Source: Hwanghaeella grinnelliae (GTDB taxonomy: Bacteria > Pseudomonadota > Alphaproteobacteria > UBA8366 > Aestuariispiraceae). From it: 64,000 nt of DNA. Location: contig NZ_SADE01000003.1 of assembly GCF_004005845.1 (NCBI RefSeq), forward strand, positions 1 through 64,000, given 5' to 3'. Shown here piece by piece: positions 49,516 to 51,385 of the stretch (the first letter of the stretch is position 1; each line of letters begins with the position of its first letter). The translations under genes and the position numbers were made by a program. The notes under the pieces were generated by a model that had not been told where the DNA came from, made no database searches, and saw only the letters and a list, made by a program, of their open reading frames with translations.

Positions 49516-50457
49516 ATGATGAGCAACGCCCAGACGACATCCGACACACCTTTCGACCTGCCGCCTGTCCGCGGCCGCGTCACGTTCGACGCCCCCTTGT
49601 CGAAGGTCACGTGGTTCCGCGTCGGCGGGCCGGCGGATGTGGTCTTCCGCCCGGAGGACCAGGAAGATCTAAGTGCTTTTCTTGCCTCCCTGCCGGACGA
49701 TGTCGACGTCATGGTCATCGGCATCGGTTCGAACCTGTTGGTCCGCGACGGTGGCGTGCGCGGCGTGGTTATCAGGCTGCTGGGACCTTTCGCCGGGATC
49801 GAAGTCGATGGAGAGATCGTGCGCGCAGGTGCCGGCGCCCTGGATCAAAATGTCGCCAAGGTAGCGGCCCGGCACGGATTGACCGGCCTTGAATTCCTTA
49901 GTGGCATCCCCGGATCGATCGGTGGGGCTTTGCGCATGAACGCCGGAGCCTATGGGGCAGAGACGAAGGATGTCCTGATCAGCGCCACGGCTGTCGACCG
50001 CCAGGGCAATGCCCACGAAGTGACGGCCGCGGAGATGGGCTTTGGTTACCGCAAATCGTCGGTGCCCGCGGATTGGATTTTCACCGAAGCCGTTTTTCGT
50101 GCAGCCCCGGGGAACCGGGAAGAGATCGAGGCAAAGATGGCCGAGATCGCCGAAAAACGGGCCGACAGCCAACCGATCAGAAGCCGCACGGGCGGGTCGA
50201 CTTTCAAAAATCCGGGCGCCCTGGACCCGGATGGACCGAAGGCTTGGAAGCTAATCGACTCGGTTGGTGGACGAGGATTGACGATTGGCGGCGCCCAAGT
50301 AAGCAATCAGCACTGTAATTTCTTAATAAATACTGGCGAAGCAACCGCAGAAGATTTAGAAAGACTAGGGGAAGTGTTACGTGCGAAAGTCAAAGAGAAA
50401 ACTGGTATAAATCTTGAGTGGGAAATAAAACGCGTAGGCGAGACAAAAGATGAGTAA
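49516..50457 (+). CDS. murB: UDP-N-acetylenolpyruvoylglucosamine reductase, with AT-rich 3' end
   Basis: Protein of 313 aa. FAD-binding motifs TWFRVGGPADVVF, GIGSNLLVRDGGV, FLSGIPGSIGGALRMNAGAY and the C-terminal RTGGSTFKNP and QVSNQHCNFLINTG are present. It reduces enolpyruvyl-UDP-GlcNAc to UDP-MurNAc. Codons from about 262 to the stop change sharply: roughly 40% GC with TTA, ATA, AGA, CTA and AAA, unlike the rest of the gene. The encoded C-terminus is still a normal MurB sequence. It overlaps ddl by 8 bases. Confidence 0.96.
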   Translation: MMSNAQTTSDTPFDLPPVRGRVTFDAPLSKVTWFRVGGPADVVFRPEDQEDLSAFLASLPDDVDVMVIGIGSNLLVRDGGVRGVVIRLLGPFAGIEVDGEIVRAGAGALDQNVAKVAARHGLTGLEFLSGIPGSIGGALRMNAGAYGAETKDVLISATAVDRQGNAHEVTAAEMGFGYRKSSVPADWIFTEAVFRAAPGNREEIEAKMAEIAEKRADSQPIRSRTGGSTFKNPGALDPDGPKAWKLIDSVGGRGLTIGGAQVSNQHCNFLINTGEATAEDLERLGEVLRAKVKEKTGINLEWEIKRVGETKDE

Positions 50458-51385
50458 GGAAAACACACCCCAGCGCAGCAAGAAAAGGGTGGCCGTCCTA
50501 TTGGGCGGCTGGTCGGCTGAGCGTGAGGTTTCCTTGGTCTCGGGCCGGGATTGCGCCGACGCTCTCGAGAAAGCCGGCTACGACGTTACGCGGATCGATG
50601 TGACGCGGGATCTGAAGGCGTTGGTCAATGCCCTGACCCCAGCGCCCGATGCCGTTTTCAATGCGTTGCACGGTCGTGGCGGCGAGGACGGCACCATTCA
50701 GGCCGTACTCGACATTCTTGGTATTCCCTACACCCATTCCGGCATGCGCAGCTCGGCCATTGCGATGGACAAGCCAACAGCGATTGCGGCCTTCCGGGCC
50801 GCCGGGCTTCCCTGCCCGAAAGGCGTCGTTGTAGCGGAAGAAGATCTGGGCAAAGGCGATCCCCTACCTCGACCCTATGTGGTGAAACCCACCCATGAAG
50901 GTTCCAGCGTCGGGGTTTACATCGTTCTGCCGGGCGACAACGGACCGGACTTTTCCGGTTGGCATTTCGGCGATGCCTTGGTTGAGGAATATGTCGCCGG
51001 GCGGGAACTGACGGTGACGGTCATGGGCGACAAACCGCTTTGCGTGACCGAACTGCGCCCCAATGACGGCTTTTATGACTACGAAGCCAAATATACCGAA
51101 GGCAAAACAGTGCATATCTGCCCGGCGGATATCCCGGAAGACATCGCGGAGCAGTGCAAGGACTACGCTTTGCGTGCGCACAATGCCCTGGGCTGTCGCG
51201 GTGTCACACGGTCCGATTTCCGTTGGGACGACAGCGCCCATAACGGATCGCGCCTGTTCCTTCTGGAAGTGAACACCCAACCCGGCATGGCGCCTTTGAG
51301 CCTCGCCCCGGAACAGGCCGCGCATGCCGGCCTGTCCTTCCCGGAGCTGGTCAGCTGGATGGTGGAGGAGGCGCAATGCGACTGA
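50450..51385 (+). CDS. ddl: D-alanine:D-alanine ligase
   Basis: Protein of 311 aa. ATP-grasp motifs: VAVLLGGWSAEREVSLVSG at the start, NALHGRGGEDGTIQ, KPTHEGSSVGV, and LEVNTQPGMAPLSLAPEQAA. It makes the D-Ala-D-Ala substrate of MurF. The start lies in the AT-rich end of murB, 8 bases overlapping. It overlaps ftsQ by 10 bases. Confidence 0.97.
   Translation: MSKENTPQRSKKRVAVLLGGWSAEREVSLVSGRDCADALEKAGYDVTRIDVTRDLKALVNALTPAPDAVFNALHGRGGEDGTIQAVLDILGIPYTHSGMRSSAIAMDKPTAIAAFRAAGLPCPKGVVVAEEDLGKGDPLPRPYVVKPTHEGSSVGVYIVLPGDNGPDFSGWHFGDALVEEYVAGRELTVTVMGDKPLCVTELRPNDGFYDYEAKYTEGKTVHICPADIPEDIAEQCKDYALRAHNALGCRGVTRSDFRWDDSAHNGSRLFLLEVNTQPGMAPLSLAPEQAAHAGLSFPELVSWMVEEAQCD

Follow-up and report, generated by a model that had tools for sequence, protein, structure and literature searches.

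Why does the murB gene of a GC-rich bacterium end in a sharply AT-rich stretch, and is this stretch foreign DNA or a part of the genome that its lineage keeps for a function of its own? We addressed this question in the window, the first 64,000 nucleotides of contig NZ_SADE01000003.1 of Hwanghaeella grinnelliae (GCF_004005845.1), and in relatives of its murB locus.

Results

A sharp composition shift at the end of murB

On the + strand, the window carries the genes murG, murC, murB, ddl, ftsQ, ftsA and ftsZ in this order. The murB gene (49516..50457, +) encodes a UDP-N-acetylenolpyruvoylglucosamine reductase of 313 residues; the open reading frame is supported by full-length relatives in all 14 genomes of the family. 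Its name was given from the position in the cluster and from these relatives, and the names of the neighbouring genes were likewise assigned from sequence and order. The ddl gene (50450..51385, +; D-alanine--D-alanine ligase, 311 residues), recognised by its reading frame and by its position in relatives, overlaps the end of murB by 8 bases. The AT-rich tail (50299..50457, +) comprises codons 262 to 313 and the stop codon of murB. Whereas the murB head has a GC content of 0.63 and a GC3 of 0.72, these values fall to 0.40 (0.397) and 0.33 from codon 262 onwards, and GC is back to about 0.62 shortly past the ddl start. The tail contains three TTA, three ATA, one AGA and one CTA codons; in the genome, TTA, AGA and CTA each make up 2-4% of the codons for their own residue and ATA 9%. 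An earlier sequence-only reading had pointed to this abrupt, rare-codon tail, and its coordinates, GC content and codon counts, as well as the position of a TATAAAT motif at 50406, were all confirmed.

The shift results from both codon choice and residue content. Recoding the tail residues 20000 times with the codon usage of the genome gave a GC of 0.518 ± 0.022 (minimum 0.423), and the observed value lies at z = -5.5; roughly half of the fall thus stems from residue content and the remainder from codon choice. We then ranked the tail within 464 kb of the genome (the window plus 20 stretches of 20 kb, with genes called simply as the longest ORFs). Among 347 gene ends, murB showed the steepest fall in GC3 from body to tail (-0.40; runner-up -0.29). 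For the lowest 51-codon GC3 stretch within any gene, murB was second of 382, behind an ftsH-like ORF whose call apparently overruns into upstream intergenic DNA, as judged by eye from its translation. For the z-score of the best 52-codon stretch it ranked fifth of 382, after the same ORF and three adjacent genes of low GC3. These three genes (L154:3419-8127, near 503400-508100 of contig C1; GC3 0.42-0.45, most genes being at about 0.7) are perhaps an acquired segment.

The tail is confined to one clade and is inherited

The AT-rich tail is present in three genomes of the family, namely the window genome (G000), a second genome of the same genus (G001, a fragmented assembly of 360 contigs with 7% contamination) and a genome of a neighbouring genus (G007), and it is absent from the other 11 of the 14. 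Among the matches listed, only these three of 239 distinct alphaproteobacterial murB tails showed a GC fall of more than 0.2 (-0.30, -0.28 and -0.23; next -0.17, at L188), and their GC3 falls of 0.52, 0.46 and 0.39 were followed at a distance by 0.24 (L204). The 239 tails are deduplicated, whereas an earlier tally of 135 rows includes duplicates (L031 repeats L001). Milder AT-rich murB tails occur in three other families (L204, L194 and L188, from G069, G243 and G143), with GC changes of -0.13 to -0.17; they begin near the same HCNF-coding stretch and are possibly independent, weaker cases. We also observed that one genome (G441) carries two full-length murB genes (on C77 and C79; 66% and 62% identical to that of the window), and that a murB relative with 64% identity (L044) lies on plasmid pTM3 of Tistrella mobilis (NC_017958.1, a record titled as a 1.1 Mb plasmid).

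The tail core (50320..50430, +; codons 269 to 305) has a GC3 of 0.27 in the window genome, 0.14 in G001 and 0.19 in G007. A 20-nt block (50317..50336, +) is exactly identical in G000 and G001, and the alignment shows that it is not shared by G007. A second block of 23 nt, AATCTTGARTGGGAAATARAACG (50410..50432, +), is kept in all three carriers, where it occupies positions -40 to -18 and ends 17 nt upstream of the ddl ATG; even with up to three mismatches allowed, it occurs only once in each of these genomes. Compared with the two other carriers, G007 has a shorter AT-rich part that stops farther from the ddl start.

We compared the descent of the tail with that of the cluster. In a tree of the MurG, MurC, FtsA and FtsZ proteins from the 14 genomes, the carriers formed a single clade with a support of 1.000, and a tree built from the 48-residue tail alone returned the same three-carrier clade with a support of 0.977. 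The sequence-only reading had proposed a recombination tract from an AT-rich donor, and a phylogeny of the tail against the rest of murB as the way to detect it; the agreement of the two trees and the presence of the tail in two genera speak against that proposal. Neither the patchy distribution nor the conflict between phylogenies expected of a horizontal tract was observed. To the extent that three carriers can tell, the AT-rich tail was vertically inherited from a single origin.

A broader version of this explanation is that an AT-rich donor supplied the tail, in one event or several, and that it survives as a relic. The boundary is indeed sharp, the residues are AT-rich as in AT-rich genomes, and the DNA matches the murB ends of AT-rich alphaproteobacteria, among others, at 67-83%. 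However, within the family the tail protein clusters with the clade of its own genomes, and the closest tail to that of the window genome is that of G001 (0.81 identical). We found no second copy of the tail in the window genome, no copy of the G007 tail in the three genomes other than that in murB, and no viral relative of murB (none of 53 pattern matches was a relative). We therefore consider it improbable that the tail is a relic of this kind.

The tail is probably under selection

The age of the tail was assessed from the rest of the gene. Where the residues of the murB heads agree, the carriers use identical codons at 46-48% of the sites, which matches the figure for GC-rich pairs that are unrelated (0.48 ± 0.05). 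Synonymous sites are thus saturated among the carriers, and a neutral AT-rich relic should have ameliorated. When codons were redrawn at this saturation from a starting GC3 of 0.25, the mean GC3 reached 0.56 with a 1% quantile of 0.40, whereas the observed tails stay at 0.33, 0.25 and 0.35. A recent transfer tract was rejected, since the tail is found in two genera, forms the same clade in the gene tree and in the tail tree, and is unameliorated.

Codon identity in the tails also exceeded the expectation for AT-matched sequences in the three carrier pairs (26 of 38 against 16.4, 15 of 28 against 11.4, and 17 of 30 against 12.7). The p for the sum was about 0.0006, the pairs gave p values of 0.0012, 0.096 and 0.072 (the latter two not significant), and the head control gave 0.07; the AT-type null was built on eight loci, with three carriers. 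A local mutational process could in principle keep the stretch AT-rich in the absence of selection, and the low GC at codon position 2 is in line with it. However, such a process would have to operate at an identical position in both genera, and it would not be expected to raise codon identity beyond the AT-matched null, so that this explanation is very improbable.

The composition also reaches the protein. Within codons 269 to 305, second-position GC in the three carriers is below that of all ten GC-rich relatives, and the FYMINK residues number 10, 10 and 12 in the carriers as compared to 5-9 in these relatives and 11 in the AT-rich G006. The pressure is acting on the nucleic acid and extends to the MurB protein. 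Slow translation offers another reading, in which rare codons delay the ribosomes near the murB-ddl overlap; the four codons are uncommon in the genome and several are placed identically in G000 and G001. However, the G007 tail is equally AT-rich with TTA once, ATA twice and neither AGA nor CTA, which shows that the composition, and not these codons, is retained. We regard an effect of the rare codons as highly unlikely.

Several known kinds of element were searched for and rejected. No Rfam element matched at E ≤ 1 in 49800-50900, and 195 of 200 shuffled sequences folded at least as well as the native one, which speaks against a stable RNA fold. No alternative reading frame runs uninterrupted through the entire tail in all three carriers: the sense frames contain stops in all three, the codon-aligned antisense frame is free of stops in just the final part of the tail, and each of the remaining antisense frames is interrupted in one or more of the three genomes. 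As to repeats, one scan gave two tandem rows, both short, of low score and located outside the tail, and another gave no repeat in the window stretch and one 10-nt direct pair in G007. Taken together, these data suggest that the AT-rich tail of murB is probably an element of some kind under selection.

RNA-level evidence at the ddl start

Since the tail runs into the ddl start, we analysed whether its AU-rich, weakly folded RNA may be a landing or enhancer region for ribosomes, in place of a strong Shine-Dalgarno (SD) sequence. We hold this reading to be possible, albeit doubtful. The ddl SD of the window genome, AGGCGAGA (50436..50443, +), is weak: it yields -3.3 kcal/mol, and the values for G001 and G007 are -6.0 and -3.3, as compared to -6.4 to -10.1 in eight relatives with GC-rich tails. 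The AT-rich-overall G006 gives -4.0. All values were computed for the ATG nearest to the murB end; two relatives have no ddl after murB. In these two, both of genus g3 (G003 and G008; L142 and L150), ftsQ directly follows murB. The weak ddl SD in all three carriers points to the RNA level rather than the DNA level, and the AT-rich 23-nt block located directly upstream of the SD in each of them agrees with this. Of the loci with the ten largest falls in GC3, eight have an SD value, and in seven of these the SD is weak (above -6.1); the overall frequency is 40 of 177, and this post hoc comparison counts the three carriers. However, a weak SD also occurs without an AT-rich tail in 17 other GC-rich loci.

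An unstructured ddl start had also been suggested from the sequence, and this was borne out only in part. The tail is less folded than its recodings in two of the three genomes (none of 60 recodings was as open in G000, and 2% in G001). In contrast, the ribosome-binding site was clearly more open in G007 only, the fraction of the 60 recodings at least as open at the ddl start being 0.68 in G000, 0.23 in G001 and 0.03 in G007, with the codon usage of G000 applied to all three. The predicted openness does not give consistent support to the RNA-level reading.

We then investigated whether SD strength and murB-tail GC vary together across GC-rich junctions. In 79 junctions, with the three AT-rich tails excluded, a negative correlation was observed (raw rho -0.41, PIC r -0.58), and no comparable negative correlation was found at the murC-murB, murG-murC and ddl-ftsQ junctions (66, 54 and 62 cases). 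A control stretch of murB, from -350 to -240, gave a PIC r of -0.26 (p 0.018). However, in 95 fresh junctions, among the matches listed, the correlation was absent (raw rho -0.10, PIC r 0.01), apart from a nominal value for the sub-stretch from -130 to -60 (raw -0.22, p 0.03); we therefore give it no weight. The pooled 174 junctions gave -0.24 (raw) and -0.22 (PIC r). From the first set, 46 of 128 rows were dropped (23 with a body GC of at most 0.58, 11 with no ATG near the stop, nine in which ddl was not next and three duplicates). The fresh set consisted of the best 122 loci of a class-wide draw in which 380 of 387 genomes matched, and 27 of them were dropped (12, six, one and eight for the same reasons). 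Loci L001-L013, L015, L031, L032, L038 and L132-L137 were left out of this comparison, family loci being represented by longer copies. Two further points argue against an RNA-level enhancer: the AT-rich patch is longer than such an enhancer requires, and A/U-rich enhancers are reported to aid strong SD sequences more than weak ones (PMC2176067).

A possible DNA-level control region within murB

Among the ideas of the sequence-only reading, the best fit is the broader one of selection acting on DNA or RNA around the ddl start, and the tail most likely serves ddl-ftsQA as a cis-acting control region within murB. The DNA level is slightly favoured over the RNA level. Our tentative first choice, to which we would give somewhat less than an even chance and which we reach by inference only, is a clade-specific DNA-level cis-acting region, that is, an internal promoter or operator for ddl-ftsQA. 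The AT-rich tail would have arisen once, in the ancestor of the window genus and the neighbouring genus, and selection on the nucleic acid would have kept it AT-rich since then. The 110-150 bp of AT-rich DNA may bear sites for RNA polymerase, for a regulator or for both, and may thereby act on ddl and the downstream division genes.

Composition elsewhere in the cluster is in line with the promoter reading. The patch lies 0.25 to 0.33 below the local mean, and the ftsZ end reaches a similar depth in G000, G007 and G004. In six genomes of genus g5 (L143-L145, L147, L148 and L151), an AT-rich patch near the ftsA end precedes ftsZ (-0.19 to -0.26), where the clade with the AT-rich murB tail shows only -0.11 to -0.12. 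Patches of similar depth at these other junctions, the ftsZ end and the ftsA end of g5, count for the promoter reading. In Rhodobacter sphaeroides, a promoter region is named at ddlA (PMC9275681).

The sequence-only reading had singled out the TATAAAT motif (50406..50412, +) as an internal promoter. A promoter at this place keeps its standing among the candidates, but no sigma-70 consensus is conserved. The motif is retained in G001 and reads CGTTAAT in G007, and no -35/-10 pair with proper spacing was found in the tails of G000, G001 and G007. The best sigma-70 scores on the + strand of the three tails (7, 7 and 8 of 12) are ordinary for coding DNA; this consensus test has a low power, a score of at least 9 of 12 being reached in 15 of 202 upstream regions and in two of 214 coding pieces of the genome. 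The conserved 23-nt block has no promoter-like appearance. Two EM promoter models trained on the upstream regions of the genome were not used, as one drifted to a start-region-like pattern and the other to an uninformative motif. Judged from these motifs, the promoter reading would appear weakened by the lack of a conserved consensus and by the altered TATAAAT in G007.

The patch might instead be a putative binding site for a nucleoid protein with a preference for AT-rich DNA, of the MucR type or another. All five genomes tested encode MucR-type proteins, with two matches each, and the recruitment of MucR is reported to increase with AT% (PMC8857273). However, G009 and G004 encode MucR-type proteins and have no AT-rich tail, showing that the presence of the protein does not explain the tail; we think such binding a poor candidate. 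It is likewise unlikely, if a shade less so, that the tail, as an AT-rich island selected as nucleic acid within an essential gene, overriding the GC-rich codon usage and bending the residues of MurB, serves as a clade-specific control site for wall and division genes through a mechanism distinct from both an ordinary promoter and a Shine-Dalgarno leader.

Discussion

The murB tail is a real, old feature of one clade that looks selected and not like a transfer tract. A sharp shift of composition within a gene is usually taken as a sign of foreign DNA; this tail has been inherited and apparently retained, and it warns against calling transfer from GC content alone. It also marks a precise site for a possible control of ddl and the downstream division genes. 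In the open-access literature searched, a scope outside which most subscription journals fall, no title dealt with an AT-rich murB end.

In E. coli, the ftsQ promoters are located inside ddlB. The murB tail is like these promoters and the ddlA promoter region of R. sphaeroides (PMC9275681) in its place upstream of ddl within a compact cluster and in being an AT-rich patch amid GC-rich DNA. It differs from them in that no consensus promoter is conserved, the patch lies wholly inside the murB frame, it is restricted to one small clade, and it is known from sequence alone. With the A/U-rich enhancers and the SD-independent initiation in unfolded leaders (PMC2176067 and PMC3121790), it has in common that a weakly folded RNA, rich in A and U, immediately precedes a start codon whose SD is weak. 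However, the murB tail is far longer (110-150 nt), it lies within the upstream reading frame, and its openness at the start codon is inconsistent across the three genomes. Finally, like the targets of the MucR silencer in alphaproteobacteria (PMC8857273), it is AT-rich and lies in a GC-rich alphaproteobacterium with MucR-type proteins; that paper is concerned largely with foreign or accessory genes, whereas here a stretch of 150 bases, known from its sequence, belongs to a vertically inherited core gene.
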